Source: Desulfurivibrionaceae bacterium
Lineage (GTDB): Bacteria > Desulfobacterota > Desulfobulbia > Desulfobulbales > UBA5123
Reading direction: 5' to 3'
Length of the DNA stretch: 55,483 nucleotides
Assembly: GCA_030145325.1 (NCBI GenBank)
Contig: JAQYVW010000015.1
Span: forward strand, 1 to 55,483
A program made the position numbers and the translations under genes. This document shows positions 8,224-25,118 of this stretch, piece by piece (position 1 is the first letter of the stretch; each line of letters begins with the position of its first letter). Below the pieces are notes generated by a model. That model saw only the letters and a program-made list of their open reading frames with translations. It was not told where the DNA came from and ran no database searches.

Positions 8224-8727
8224 ATGGCCGACGAACCGGAAGTCCAGGCGGAAGAAGAAGCACCGCCGAAGAAAAAATCCAAGGCTCTCTTTTTCATTAT
8301 CCTCAGTGTATGCGTAATACTCTTGGGCGGCGGCGGCTTTTTCGCCTACATGAAATTCATGGCCCCACAACAGGACGCAGAGGCAGTAAATGAAAGCAGC
8401 GAACCGGCCCCTCCGGTGGACACGGTGGGCGAAATATTTGCCTTGGAACCTTTTGTCGTCAACCTGGCCGACCCAAAAGGCAGACGCTACCTAAAGGTTC
8501 AACTTAAACTTGAGATCGAGAACCCGGAAGCGCTGGAGCGAACCCAAAAGGCGGCGCCAAAGCTTAGGGATCTGGTTATCATCATGCTAACCAGCCTTAC
8601 CTTTGAAGAGGTCATGACCCCGGAGGGGAAAATCCGCATCCGGGATGAATTACTGGAACGGTTCAACCAGGTGATGCGACCCGACCGGGTCAAGAATATC
8701 TACTTTACCGAGTTCGTGGTACAGTAA
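8224..8727 (+). CDS. fliL: Flagellar basal body-associated protein FliL
   Basis: This 167-residue inner-membrane protein has a short charged cytoplasmic tail rich in Glu and Lys, one membrane helix at about residues 21-43 with a Gly run, and a periplasmic stomatin-like domain ending in the typical YFTEFVVQ. FliL surrounds the stator units and supports torque and stator stability. GGGAGA precedes the ATG. It is the first gene of the flagellar cluster and sits directly behind the sigma-54 promoter. fliM follows after 74 bases in the usual order. Confidence 0.95.
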   Translation: MADEPEVQAEEEAPPKKKSKALFFIILSVCVILLGGGGFFAYMKFMAPQQDAEAVNESSEPAPPVDTVGEIFALEPFVVNLADPKGRRYLKVQLKLEIENPEALERTQKAAPKLRDLVIIMLTSLTFEEVMTPEGKIRIRDELLERFNQVMRPDRVKNIYFTEFVVQ

Positions 8728-9884: not shown

Positions 9885-10319
9885 ATGGCAGACGAACCCT
9901 TAGACGATGCCTGGGCCGATGCATTGGAAGATAGCAAATCCGCCCCCGCAGCCCCGGCCACGACCGCCTCAGATGACGCCTGGGGAGACAGCGGTGACTC
10001 CGCGCAGGCCGCCAACTTCGCGGACTTAGGCGGCAGCGCCGGCGCAGGACAATCCGGCTCACAAAACCTTGATTTCCTCCTTGACGTGCCACTGGAAGTA
10101 ACGGTGGAACTGGGCCGCACCGACATGATCATCAACAACATGCTGCAACTGACCCAGGGCTCGGTGGTGGAACTGGACAAAGCCGCCGGCGAACCGGTGG
10201 AAATCTTCGTCAACAACAAATTACTGGGCAAAGGCGAGGTTATCGTCGTCAACGAACGTTTCGGAGTAAGAATCACCGAAATAATCAGCCAAGCCGACCG
10301 CATCAAGAACATGGGATGA
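9885..10319 (+). CDS. fliN: Flagellar motor switch protein FliN
   Basis: This 144-residue protein has an Ala/Asp/Ser-rich N-terminal half of low complexity and a C-terminal SpoA domain with DVPLEVTVELGRTDM, the glycine-containing QGSVVELDKAAGEPV and NKLLGKGEVIVVNERFGVRI. It builds the base of the C-ring and binds the export ATPase regulator FliH. AGGAG lies 8 bases before the ATG. The stop codon overlaps the fliO start as ATGA, so the two are translationally coupled. Confidence 0.97.
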   Translation: MADEPLDDAWADALEDSKSAPAAPATTASDDAWGDSGDSAQAANFADLGGSAGAGQSGSQNLDFLLDVPLEVTVELGRTDMIINNMLQLTQGSVVELDKAAGEPVEIFVNNKLLGKGEVIVVNERFGVRITEIISQADRIKNMG

Positions 10320-18276: not shown

Positions 18277-19062
18277 ATGAACAAGAAACCAACCTCGAAA
18301 TTTAAAGATTACACTCAGGCCTACTTCAGCCAAGGTGGACAACTTGATCAGGCGACCCGTAGCGACCTCATCCTCAACTACACCCCGCTGATCAAATACA
18401 TTGCCATCCGTCTCTCCTCCAGGCTTCCGGCCCAGGTTGCCCTTGACGACCTGATCAGTTGCGGAACCATCGGCCTGATCGATGCCATTGAAAAGTTTAA
18501 CCCAGCCAAGAAGGTACAGTTCAAAACCTATGCGGAATTCCGCATCAAAGGCGCGATGCTTGACGAACTGCGCTCCCTGGACTGGGTACCACGCTCGGTT
18601 CGCCGCAAAGTGACCGATCTCGAGAAAGTATATAGCGAACTGGAAAAAAAGTTGGGACGTCCTGCCACCGACGAAGAGACAGCCGCAGCCCTTAATCTAG
18701 ACCTAAACGGCTTCCACAAACTCCTTGATGAGACAAAAACGGTTTCCTTCATGGACATCGACATGATGCGAAACAAAAATCCGATTCCCGATGACAGGGG
18801 CAGTCTCGCTGAAACCTTTGCTGCCGATGGCACCGACCCTTTTGCCGCCCTGAACGTTGCTGAAATCCGCAATGTGATCGCCAAGGCCATCACATCCCTG
18901 CCGGAAAAAGAGAAACTTACCGTCTCCCTGTACTACTTTGAGGAACTAACCATGAAGGAGATTGGCGAAGTTCTTGGCTATACAGAATCGCGAATCTCCC
19001 AGATGCACAGCAAGGCCATGTTACGCCTACGCTCTAAACTAAAAAACAAACTCACCAGCTAA
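18277..19062 (+). CDS. fliA: Flagellar sigma factor sigma-28 (FliA/WhiG family)
   Basis: This 261-residue sigma factor has region 2 (DDLISCGTIGLIDAIEKFNP and FKTYAEFRIKGAMLDELRS with the following DWVPRSVR), region 3 and region 4 (LTMKEIGEVLGYTESRISQMHSKAM). The DWVPR motif is typical of the FliA/WhiG group. It should drive late flagellar and chemotaxis genes. It follows flhG by 74 bases. The AT-rich gap of 280 bases after it contains a small TTTCAG/CTGAAA hairpin but no clear terminator. Confidence 0.95.
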   Translation: MNKKPTSKFKDYTQAYFSQGGQLDQATRSDLILNYTPLIKYIAIRLSSRLPAQVALDDLISCGTIGLIDAIEKFNPAKKVQFKTYAEFRIKGAMLDELRSLDWVPRSVRRKVTDLEKVYSELEKKLGRPATDEETAAALNLDLNGFHKLLDETKTVSFMDIDMMRNKNPIPDDRGSLAETFAADGTDPFAALNVAEIRNVIAKAITSLPEKEKLTVSLYYFEELTMKEIGEVLGYTESRISQMHSKAMLRLRSKLKNKLTS

Positions 19063-19342: not shown

Positions 19343-19726
19343 ATGCCTGATAATGCTAGCATGAAGGTTCTTGTTGTTGATGACTTCGCCACCATGCGGA
19401 GAATTGTCAAAAATATTCTTGTCCAATTGGGCTTCAAAAATATAATCGAAGCGGATGATGGAACCAGTGCCTTAGAAATTCTACAGAAAGAAAAGGTCGA
19501 CTTAATTATCTCTGACTGGAACATGCCCAAGATGACCGGCCTTGACCTGCTAAAAACGGTGCGCGCAGATGCCAACCTTGCCGCCACTCCATTTATCATG
19601 GTAACGGCTGAGGCGCAGCAGGATAACATCATTGCCGCCGTCAAGGCCAAGGTAAGCCAGTACATCGTAAAGCCTTTCACGGCTGACACCTTGTCTGAAA
19701 AACTGGATAAGATTTTCGGCAGCTAA
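19343..19726 (+). CDS. cheY: Chemotaxis response regulator CheY
   Basis: This 127-residue protein is a stand-alone receiver domain with all key residues: Asp13/Asp14, the phospho-acceptor Asp58 (SDWNMP), Thr88 and Lys110 (VKPF). It resembles enterobacterial CheY closely, including the [12 protein letters not shown] loop. Phosphorylated CheY would bind the FliM peptide encoded in the same cluster. GGGAGG precedes the ATG. No cheA, cheW or cheZ gene lies in the window. Confidence 0.93.
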
Positions 19727-19748: not shown

Positions 19749-20624
19749 ATGGGAGACGACTCTCAACAAAATGATGTAGCGCCGGACAACATTGACGATG
19801 ATCTGGCCAGTGACTGGGAGTCCGCTTTTCAGGCCGACGACTTCTCCTTCTCACCCGAGGATGGGGGGGATGATTTCTTCCTTGGCGACGAAACAGAATT
19901 CACCTCTGCAACCAGCACTTCCTACGACTTCACCCCCCCTTCCGAAAAAGAACTTAATGACCTCCCCGATCTCGATGAGGAGGCCTTTGCTCCCCAGCAG
20001 GAAGAAGCCCTTACAGATGTTGCCGCCACCACCCACAAAAGCACGGCGGCAACACTGCCAACCAGACTGGCTTCCCTGTATCACTCCGCCAAACTTCGCT
20101 TACAACTCCTCTCCCGTAAGCAGCAAATCGTCGCCGGAGTTGCCATCCTTGCTCTGCTACTCCTACCACTGCTAATCCCAGAGTCAGGTAAAGATAATAC
20201 AGTCACCACCGAATCGACAGCGGTCGATGTTACCGCTGTTGAAGATTCGGCGCCCACCGAGATACCAGCCGAAGAACTGCCCCCGCCGGTGGAAGTCCAT
20301 GAGAAAGTCCGAGTTAAATGGAAGTTCCCTGCTTTTCTTATCCCTGCCCCGCAACGCAAAGACACTCCACGCAAAACCAACTTCGTCCAGACCGACATCA
20401 CCCTTGTTCTCCTCCTTGACGAAGGAGAAAAGCCCCCGGCGGACAAAGAACTTATGGTTCGAGAAATCATCTATCAATTCTACAGCAACCAACCGTTGAA
20501 CACCCTGCGCCGCTTCGCTCTCGCCCGCGGAGACATGAACCGCGCCCTCCGCGCCTGGATCGAAAAGCAATGGCCCCATGCCCCCGTCGAGGCCATCATG
20601 TTTAATCGCTACCAAGTCATTTAA
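19749..20624 (+). CDS. Single-pass membrane protein with FliL-like layout, unknown function
   Basis: This 291-residue product is not one I recognise. Residues 1-95 are very acidic (many Asp/Glu/Ser) and probably cytoplasmic. A single membrane helix lies at about 126-144, preceded by basic residues, and the remainder would be periplasmic. The C-terminal 80 residues have a beta strand (TDITLVLLLDEG), a helix, then a helix and terminal strand ending FNRYQVI. This order is reminiscent of the FliL periplasmic domain, whose end in this genome is YFTEFVVQ. It starts 22 bases after cheY and ends the flagellar cluster, so a motor- or stator-associated role is plausible but inferred. No clear ribosome site precedes the ATG; coupling to cheY is possible. 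Confidence 0.7.
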   Translation: MGDDSQQNDVAPDNIDDDLASDWESAFQADDFSFSPEDGGDDFFLGDETEFTSATSTSYDFTPPSEKELNDLPDLDEEAFAPQQEEALTDVAATTHKSTAATLPTRLASLYHSAKLRLQLLSRKQQIVAGVAILALLLLPLLIPESGKDNTVTTESTAVDVTAVEDSAPTEIPAEELPPPVEVHEKVRVKWKFPAFLIPAPQRKDTPRKTNFVQTDITLVLLLDEGEKPPADKELMVREIIYQFYSNQPLNTLRRFALARGDMNRALRAWIEKQWPHAPVEAIMFNRYQVI

Positions 20625-20796: not shown

Positions 20797-20960
20797 TTAA
20801 GAAGCGGTGAAGATTGTCGCCTGGCCAGGCACCCCAAAAGCACCACCGTATGTTGCGCCGACCACTAGCGGTGGCCGACGTAACCAAAATCAACAGGTAT
20901 CACGAAAAATAGTTTTTCGCCGTGATGGCCCCCAAAGTTAACATTAAAGAGGTTTCTCCA

Positions 20961-22175
<1,215 letters not shown>

Positions 22176-22187
22176 TAATTAAGTTAG

Positions 22188-22550
<363 letters not shown>

Positions 22551-25118
22551 ATGGAAAAGGGCGAACTGCGTGCCAGGCGGGACGCCCTTGAGGCCTTTTG
22601 GCGACAAGGGCTGGAAGGACGAAAACTCCTCCAAAAACAGACCCAGCTCCTTGACAAATACATCAGACATTATCATGAAAAATGTCCGCAGGAATTACGC
22701 TCGCACATCACTCTGGTCGCCTTAGGCGGCTACGGGCGCTGCGAGCAGTTTCCGTTTTCGGATGTTGACATTCTTCTCCTCCACCAGCCGGAGGTCACAG
22801 AACAACTTGACATCATTACCGAAACCATCTTTTATCCGCTCTGGGATGCTGGACTTGAGGTGGGGCACGGGGTGCGCACCATTGAGGCTTGCCTGGTCGA
22901 TGCTAACAAAGACTTTTTCTTCCAAGTCGCCCTACTGGATGCCAGATTCCTTTGCGGTAACGAAAGATTATTTGCAGATCTTGAGAAACAATACCGGCAA
23001 GGCTTTGTCGAAGGCCAACGACGAACCTTCTTTGAAAACATGATAAACAGCCGCCAGCAACGTCAACAACGATTCGGGATGCACAGCTACCTTCTTGAGC
23101 CGCATATCAAGGAAAGTCGGGGCGGCTTACGTGATATTCACGCTATGATGTGGACGGCCAAGGCTCTCTTCGGCCTCTCGTCCCTTGAGGATATGTATGA
23201 TTCAGGGCTGTTAAGCAAACAGGAACAAATCGACTTCACCTCGGCCTGGGACCACCTCGTAAAAACTCGCAACCGCTTGCATTTCCTGAGCAGCCGCAAA
23301 AACGATCAGCTCTATTTTGAATACCAGGAAGAAATGGCCAACGACTTGCAATTTCGTAACACCAAGGATCTGCTCGGGGTAGAGCAATTCATGCGCGACC
23401 TTTACGGCCACCTGCAAAAGGTGGCTGTGGGCACCGACCTGTTCTTTGAACATGTGGAGGAGTCCCTGGCCCTTGCTGCCCCCTCCACCACCAAGGCCGC
23501 AAAGAAAACCACGAACAATTGCATAATCATCCGCCACAACCATCTCCACCTGGAGCTGGACGACTCAAGCCAGTTGCCAAGCAAACCTTATCTCCTCATG
23601 CAGGTTTTCGCCCAAGCGGCAAAAACCGGCCTCCCCATCCACTATCGCACCAAGAAACTGATCACCGCCAACCTTAACCTGATCGATGAGCGAAGCCGCA
23701 GTTCCAAACGAATGGCCAAGGCCTTCCTTGCCGCCCTCAGTGAAGCTGCGGAACCACTGCCGGTTCTCACCACCATGCTTGAAACTGGCCTCTTGACCGC
23801 TTACCTTCCAGAACTGGGCAAGATCGCTTCCCTTGCCCAGCACGACGTGTACCACATCTACACCGTTGACCGCCACCTCCTCCAAACCGTGGCCGAAACG
23901 GTGCTCCTGCGCCAAGAGGAAGCAGCGGTTTTTATGGCTTTGGCCTCACCCAATGTTCTTTTTCTTGCCGCCCTCCTCCATGATATCGGTAAAGGGCAGG
24001 GCGGCAAGCACGCCGAACTGGGCGCCGAACAGGCTGCGGCCATCGGCAAACGAATGGGCTGGTCGGATGCTGACACCGCTTGTCTCTGTTACCTGATCAA
24101 AAACCATCTATTCCTCACCGAAACCGCCCTCAGACGAGATCTTGAAGACGAATTATTCATCATCCGCTGTGCCCGTAAAATCGAAGATCAGGATCGCCTC
24201 AACATGCTCTTTCTTCTTTCCATTGCCGATGCGCGGGCCACCGGCCCCACCGCCTGGAACGACTGGAAAGCATCGTTATTACTTGAACTCTATCAGCGCA
24301 TCACCAATCTCATCGGCAACACCGATCACCTAACCGCCCCGGATCAGCACCTCAGCGTCGACTGGATGCGTTCCCAAATTGCTGCCATGTTGGCCCCGGC
24401 CCAAGCCAAGACCATGGCTAAGGTTCTCAACCACCTTCCCGACGACTACCTGCTCAGCTTCGGCGCCGACGAGGTCATGGAACACCTTGCCATGCACCAG
24501 CGACTGCAAGGGAAAAAAGCCCTCATCGCCGCCACCGACCACGGTGATGCCTGGACCATCCGGATCATGGCCAAGGACCGGCCAGGACTGCTGGCCAAGA
24601 TTTGTGGCACCCTAGCGCTACACAACCTTACCGTCTTGTCAGCCCAAATCTGGACCTGGCCTGACAACACTGCCGTTGACGTGCTCAAAGTCAGCTCCCA
24701 ACAGGGTGACTCCTGGCTGGAACAAGACTGGACGAAACTTGCCAATGACCTGAACCTGGCCCTGGCCAACCGCCTGGCCTTGGCGCACCGCCTAATGGAG
24801 AAAAGGTCAACAATTTCATCCCGGCACCACCGCATGGGTGTCCGCCCCAACCCGCGCGTCCAGATCAACGACACCACCTCAGACCGCTACACGGTTATTG
24901 AGGTGTTTGCCGATAACCATCTCGGCCTCTTGCACGACGTCACCAGATGTTTGGCCGAACTGGACATCAATATTCATCAGGCGAAAATCGCCACCGAGAA
25001 AGAAAGACTGGTGGATGTTTTTTACGTTCTTGACAGCGAAGGAAATAAGATTGAAGATGATTTTTTTCGTAAAGAGATAAGCAAAGCGCTTCTGCATGTT
25101 GCGCATAACAACAGATAA
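22551..25118 (+). CDS. glnD: Bifunctional uridylyltransferase/uridylyl-removing enzyme GlnD
   Basis: This 855-residue protein has the four-part GlnD architecture. The nucleotidyltransferase motif GGYGRCEQFPFSDVD at 59-73 carries the metal-binding Asp71/Asp73. The HD domain has His477-Asp478 in LLHDIGKGQGG. Two C-terminal ACT domains begin near RIMAKDRPGLLAKI and EVFADNHLGLLHDVTR. It uridylylates PII at Tyr51 when glutamine is low and removes UMP when glutamine is high. Its ATG follows the glnB stop with no gap, so sensor and target are translationally coupled. The frame is intact throughout. Confidence 0.97.
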   Translation: MEKGELRARRDALEAFWRQGLEGRKLLQKQTQLLDKYIRHYHEKCPQELRSHITLVALGGYGRCEQFPFSDVDILLLHQPEVTEQLDIITETIFYPLWDAGLEVGHGVRTIEACLVDANKDFFFQVALLDARFLCGNERLFADLEKQYRQGFVEGQRRTFFENMINSRQQRQQRFGMHSYLLEPHIKESRGGLRDIHAMMWTAKALFGLSSLEDMYDSGLLSKQEQIDFTSAWDHLVKTRNRLHFLSSRKNDQLYFEYQEEMANDLQFRNTKDLLGVEQFMRDLYGHLQKVAVGTDLFFEHVEESLALAAPSTTKAAKKTTNNCIIIRHNHLHLELDDSSQLPSKPYLLMQVFAQAAKTGLPIHYRTKKLITANLNLIDERSRSSKRMAKAFLAALSEAAEPLPVLTTMLETGLLTAYLPELGKIASLAQHDVYHIYTVDRHLLQTVAETVLLRQEEAAVFMALASPNVLFLAALLHDIGKGQGGKHAELGAEQAAAIGKRMGWSDADTACLCYLIKNHLFLTETALRRDLEDELFIIRCARKIEDQDRLNMLFLLSIADARATGPTAWNDWKASLLLELYQRITNLIGNTDHLTAPDQHLSVDWMRSQIAAMLAPAQAKTMAKVLNHLPDDYLLSFGADEVMEHLAMHQRLQGKKALIAATDHGDAWTIRIMAKDRPGLLAKICGTLALHNLTVLSAQIWTWPDNTAVDVLKVSSQQGDSWLEQDWTKLANDLNLALANRLALAHRLMEKRSTISSRHHRMGVRPNPRVQINDTTSDRYTVIEVFADNHLGLLHDVTRCLAELDINIHQAKIATEKERLVDVFYVLDSEGNKIEDDFFRKEISKALLHVAHNNR

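Follow-up and report, generated by a model that had tools for sequence, protein, structure and literature searches.

The gene that closes the flagellar cluster in the window (the whole stretch of DNA analysed, 55,483 nucleotides) encodes, with little room for doubt, a divergent FliL paralog, here called FLX, for which the name FliL2 would be possible. FLX occupies positions 19749..20624 on the forward strand (291 residues), as judged from the open reading frame, its relatives and its fold. It is a second FliL-type gene beside the canonical fliL, the first FliL of the cluster (8224..8727, + strand), as the initial annotation had proposed, and fold and intermediate sequences together bear this out. 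As the homology is seen through fold and intermediates while the Pfam cut-off is missed, we speak of a FliL paralog and not of FliL. The new element of FLX is the motif in its long cytoplasmic tail, FliL paralogs as such being already known. Taken as a whole, the explanation we think probable is that of a second FliL at the stator with a tail that docks a FliN- or CheY-type partner.

FLX starts with an ATG codon, 22 nucleotides beyond the stop (19726) of cheY (19343..19726, + strand), the gene directly upstream of it wherever the locus is readable. The next gene downstream, amtB at 20922, marks the end of the flagellar cluster. Both the position directly after cheY and the closing place in the cluster had been correctly read before. 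Upstream, the cluster runs fliL, fliM, fliN, fliO, fliP, fliR, flhB, flhA, flhF, flhG, fliA (18277..19062, + strand) and cheY, with gene names in the window assigned from the sequences and the matching order in relatives established by BLAST. The nitrogen regulation genes amtB-glnK-glnD follow FLX in the window (20922-25118) and in most readable FLX loci, which makes them an unusually constant neighbour of a flagellar cluster.

The N-terminal tail of the protein (residues 1-102; 19749..20054, + strand) is acidic, with 29 D/E against 2 K/R in residues 1-100, and probably disordered, pLDDT being mostly below 70. It contains the conserved motif at residues 15-32 (19791..19844, + strand; family consensus GxDWESAFQAED). 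A single membrane-spanning helix lies at residues ~127-145 (20127..20183, + strand; 123-142 in the model). Residues 127-145 form the best 19-residue hydrophobic window (mean hydropathy 2.46) and are preceded by basic residues, and in 37 of 42 family members there are more K/R before the span than behind it, which fits a predicted N-in/C-out arrangement. From these sequence features FLX is predicted to have one span with its N-terminus inside, as in FliL, and the acidic cytoplasmic region and lone membrane helix described in the initial annotation are both recovered. At ~120 residues (median 122, range 77-145) the cytoplasmic tail is longer than that of the local canonical FliL, which has 21 (16-23). 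A Pro/Ala-rich periplasmic linker of low conservation (residues 146-185; 20184..20303, + strand) leads to the predicted FliL/SPFH-like domain (residues 186-291; 20304..20621, + strand), identified by Foldseek, VIA-align and a Pfam FliL match below cut-off.

AlphaFold2, given a 42-sequence alignment, models residues 186-291 with pLDDT mostly around 95 and the order E-E-H-H-H-E, in line with the FliL-like final helix-strand order noticed earlier. Foldseek found ten matches at E <0.001, nine of them FliL chains (6ahq_C with E 1.7e-4) and one a chain of the Campylobacter motor scaffold. Alignment with VIA gave Z scores of 12.2 (6ahq_N; 99 residues, 2.4 A), 11.8 and 11.6 against FliL, compared to 9.6 or less against SPFH proteins. 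As a control, a model of the window's canonical FliL made without an alignment scored 13.3 (6ahq_N), 15.8 (7sgn_E) and 12.6 (6ahp_A), so that by these models the FLX fold is slightly further from FliL than that of canonical FliL. The modelled periplasmic domain is FliL/SPFH-like, and the comparison with FliL proposed along with the initial annotation returned FliL structures as the best matches in both programs. The FLX profile, run against the sequences of solved structures, gave no match, and the link to FliL structures is thus one of fold alone.

Compared directly by sequence, FLX and FliL are weakly similar. The window's FLX scores 17.8 bits (E 0.0049) with the Pfam FliL model (PF03748) and does not reach the curated cut-off of 24.6 bits; the canonical FliL of the window scores 97.2 bits. 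At E<=0.1 the model matches 15 of 32 FLX members, no other family being matched by many members, and in three of the 34 genomes with FLX the score exceeds the model's own cut-off. NCBIfam showed no consistent family (GltJ in 4/32 members, best 8.5e-4), and hhalign of the FLX profile against local canonical FliL was not significant (1.1% and 0.3%).

Intermediates come from elsewhere in the phylum. When 395 phylum genomes were searched with the FLX profile, 15 weak matches were found, five of them right after fliA or fliA-cheY, with the other ten resembling composition matches or unrelated proteins. Weak matches off flagellar loci (G054:C22, G324:C1 and others) include Ala/Pro-rich linkers of a kinase-like and an FHA-like protein, apparently matched for their composition. 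fliA is present in 275 of the 395 genomes, and we surveyed 60 stretches downstream of it, spread over families; 54 had a candidate ORF, three ended early and three had no ORF. Among the 24 candidates that follow a cheY, ten match Pfam FliL at E<=0.01 and 11 match a profile built from canonical FliL only; the corresponding counts for the 30 candidates without a cheY are seven and six, and the canonical profile matched none of 252 opposite-strand ORFs. Further candidates after fliA are clearly of other kinds, such as HEAT repeats, histidine kinases, DUF2802-type proteins, FliM/FliN and response regulators. One locus (L207, in G106) has cheY, then a 323-residue HEAT-repeat protein and only then a FliL-type gene. 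By hhalign, 24 second FliLs of the phylum match FLX (98.4%, E 6.7e-14) and also canonical FliL (99.2%, E 2.1e-18), though this set was chosen for matching either the FLX or the canonical profile, a choice that favours a bridge. A control using the FLX tails gave a probability of ~0. Given weak direct similarity that is bridged by these proteins, FLX is best described as a divergent paralog rather than a recent local copy.

We also considered FLX as a recent duplicate of the local fliL, and ruled this out by means of a tree (77 rows, 110 columns, including 16 of the 42 rows of alignment A2 and 8 of the 23 rows of A3) that has few columns and long branches and is read for this point solely. FLX forms one group (98/98) on its own side of the branch, a branch that is not starred (89/84) has canonical FliL on one side, and the local canonical FliL nests among the canonical FliL of the phylum. 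On the same tree the post-cheY rows need two changes and the post-fliA rows three.

By protein search, FLX occurs in 34 of 58 genomes of its own genus, family and order, all 34 of which have flhA, and in none of the 12 genomes that lack flhA. An ORF with relatives in this many genomes of the order, always together with flhA, is not a chance one. The immediate upstream neighbour of FLX is cheY, on the same strand, in 32 of the 33 relatives' loci read, with the other locus beginning at a contig end. A scan of GTDB contigs with the window's FLX protein singly found no relative, whereas an alignment query (A1, omitting the truncated L048 and L061) found 46 FLX records, many on contigs already in the first set, which are labelled as belonging to Desulfobulbaceae, Desulfurivibrio, Desulfobia, Desulfocapsa and unclassified deltaproteobacterial or proteobacterial MAGs. 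The order fliA-cheY-FLX holds in 45 of the 46 loci, the remaining one being cut inside FLX by the contig end. Alignment A2 (42 rows) takes in 41 of the 46 loci, leaving out L083, L087, L098, L099 and L122 (truncated, near-copies or at a contig end). Every readable relative is thus found in a flagellar cluster after cheY and not away from flagellar loci, as the initial annotation anticipated. The second FliL that it placed "in this lineage" is indeed present there, and the kind is not confined to the lineage: other families of the phylum also have second FliL-type genes behind fliA or fliA-cheY.

Twelve flagellated relatives are without FLX, and in two of them the sequence ends at or just past fliA. 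In all of the ten that can be read, a short protein comes next after fliA, ahead of flgF/flgG-like genes (names that are our own assignment), and neither cheY nor an FLX profile match is seen there. Within the order, FLX therefore goes with one of two types of flagellar cluster. In loci of the second type (L066, L068-L076), the short protein was DUF6115/DUF2802-like in one of two scanned and the genes beyond are rod-type; their FliN lacks the W motif described below, and several start with a PEE(L/I)KELL-type segment.

The most conserved of the FLX stretches compared lies in the tail. Residues 15-32 carry on average 3.19 bits, above the FliL-like domain with 2.45, the membrane span with 1.59 and the linker (residues 143-185) with 1.08, and D22, W23, A26 and F27 are invariant in 42 rows. 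When a matrix of this motif was run over 2118 ORFs, 34 of them FLX, seven fliN were among the best 20 of the 2084 others, 28 fliN being present in all; the hypergeometric value of 2e-9 for this enrichment is overstated, since the fliN copies are related and not independent. In FLX genomes the start of FliN is a GDDWAAAL-type segment, DDAWADAL in the window (9903..9926, + strand). Leaving out L038, L051 and L058, whose frames are not closed within the locus, the pattern [DE]x(0,1)WxxA[LMFIV] is found in 23 of 26 full FliN starts of FLX genomes (22 of 25 relatives, plus the window), in FliN of none of 11 flagellated relatives without FLX, and in two of eight from others of the phylum. Presence or absence of the FliN motif follows cluster type, possibly by one ancestral split, and its link to the FLX motif is a weak one. 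The motif is not peculiar to bacteria with FLX, as DDLWAEAL in E. coli FliN shows. Elsewhere in the phylum, second FliLs bear, by eye, different acidic-hydrophobic tail motifs, for instance DDELWDE...LFEE. Also by eye, the tails of the second FliLs in L175, L176, L186 and L220 have a DExxLAEI-like segment that recalls the CheY-binding EIDALL motif of FliM.

From its sequence, the tail motif hints that the tail docks onto something in the cytoplasm, for example CheY-P or the C-ring. A discussion passage in PMC9126983 treats the N-termini of FliM and FliN(Y) as capture sites for CheY-P. Against this, the part of PMC11528121 that describes the CheY-bound C-ring structure has CheY making no contact with FliN. 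A phrase-based literature search on the FliN N-terminus found nothing. That the motif binds a FliN/CheY-type partner is, on the basis of sequence, a tentative proposal with less than an even chance.

By analogy to FliL, FLX probably works at the stator. The stator interaction and the docking tail raised in the initial annotation both gain in plausibility. According to an excerpt of PMC10127578, FliL rings lie between MotA and the peptidoglycan-binding domain of MotB, and the same paper argues that canonical FliL is able to inhibit the motor through its N-terminal region. The periplasmic domain of FLX would most likely sit with or beside canonical FliL around stator units, with the acidic tail hanging in the cytoplasm and presenting its FliN-like DWxxAF motif to CheY-P or a C-ring component. 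Stator engagement could then be tuned by switch state, chemotaxis state or C-ring assembly, and the tail may link membrane parts of the motor to cytoplasmic control parts. The most specific version, in which FLX is a membrane-tethered FliN mimic coupling a stator-side FliL ring to CheY-P or C-ring subunits, we hold to be distinctly unlikely.

A role at the stator has to be weighed against other uses of the same parts. FipA-type single-span proteins (DUF2802/DUF6115), with genes close to this place, are thought to recruit C-ring or FlhF/FlhG components, and FLX might likewise be a FliL-fold protein for flagellar assembly or placement, a membrane anchor recruiting such components through its tail. 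Its constant place adjoining flhF-flhG-fliA-cheY would suit this, as would the tail motif being the best-conserved part of the protein and the ten readable loci without cheY-FLX, where a short, mostly single-span-looking protein follows fliA instead; of two such proteins scanned, one gave a weak DUF6115/DUF2802 match and the other no match. However, FliL-type and DUF6115/DUF2802-type genes coexist within one stretch in other families of the phylum (L167, L176 and L217), which speaks against simple replacement, and the domain is that of FliL, whose known place, in the part of PMC10127578 cited above, is the stator. We consider an assembly role rather unlikely. It is more improbable that canonical FliL serves one stator while FLX is reserved for another, built from an alternative MotAB. 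Several FliL and MotAB pairs coexist in Bdellovibrio, where a FliL that bound one MotB did not bind a second (in a portion of PMC11323537). A lone MotB_plug match is seen in 13 of the 34 FLX genomes, among them that of the window, and FLX therefore does not need a second stator set.

CheZ follows fliA-cheY in some gammaproteobacteria, and the position of FLX directly after cheY in all readable loci, along with its acidic tail motif, could be taken to mean that it stands in functionally for CheZ by removing or sequestering CheY-P. This we rejected as highly improbable, as FLX has no CheZ match (PF04344) at E up to 10 and CheZ-type matches are found elsewhere in 27 of the 34 FLX genomes, including its own. 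In the latter, a 513-residue frame (G000:C14:4318-5622, - strand) matches CheZ (PF04344) in two halves with ~240 residues between them, and similar CheZ-type frames of 503-570 residues occur in many relatives, possibly CheZ with a large insertion.

The closest known system to the favoured stator-side FLX is FliL itself (PF03748; 6ahq/6ahp, 7sgn), with which it shares, as predicted, a single N-in span, a periplasmic FliL/SPFH fold and a gene in the flagellar cluster. Unlike FliL, its gene follows cheY, the place directly before fliM being taken by canonical fliL, its sequence is below the Pfam cut-off, and its cytoplasmic part has ~120 residues compared to N-termini of 2-28 residues in FliL (as given in part of PMC10127578). 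SPFH proteins (stomatin, prohibitin, HflK/C) share the fold of the FLX domain with lower scores than FliL (Z 9.6 or less versus 12.2). FliN resembles FLX in a short linear motif (GDDWxxA[LM] in FLX genomes and DDLWAEAL in E. coli, versus GxDWxxAF in FLX), and no further similarity to FliN was seen in FLX. We know of no flagellar linkage of SPFH proteins.

The second FliLs of the phylum are alike in their place after fliA or fliA-cheY, long acidic tail, single span and FliL-type domain, and differ in their tail motifs and in that the two scanned exceed the Pfam FliL cut-off (64.4 and 36 bits). In Desulfovibrio vulgaris, DVU3227 is probably a second FliL too, judging by its numbering two genes from fliA; DVU3228 is presumably cheY, and our literature search found no source naming it. 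From portions of the respective papers, fliA of this species is DVU3229 (PMC3944678), and DVU3227 has the annotation "flagellar basal body-associated protein, putative" (PMC11784015) and is termed motility-associated in a study where evolved lines accumulated frameshift, missense and nonsense mutations in it (PMC8319347). The protein had been called unrecognised, which is fair for FLX and not wholly so for its kind, given that annotation of a position-equivalent gene. MotF of Sinorhizobium and Agrobacterium, compared here by description, is likewise a second FliL-type protein beside FliL; in an excerpt of PMC9812332 it is needed for motility, has motA suppressors, and unlike FLX is reported as confined to Alphaproteobacteria, mostly Rhizobiaceae. 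Several FliLs are also mentioned for Bdellovibrio relatives (three; PMC11323537, in part) and Rhodobacter (two; PMC10746153, in part).

The role of FliL is still disputed, and FLX offers a natural variant with an enlarged cytoplasmic part, encoded beside cheY. That part, of ~120 residues, carries the most conserved motif of the protein and thus provides four residues and a peptide as targets, and the analysis identifies a hypothetical protein to include in the parts list of these flagellar motors. If FLX were indeed a FliN mimic, it would act on the stator as a brake or clutch gated by chemotaxis or assembly. Such a device would be shared by much of an order, and second FliLs from other parts of the phylum bear comparable tails.
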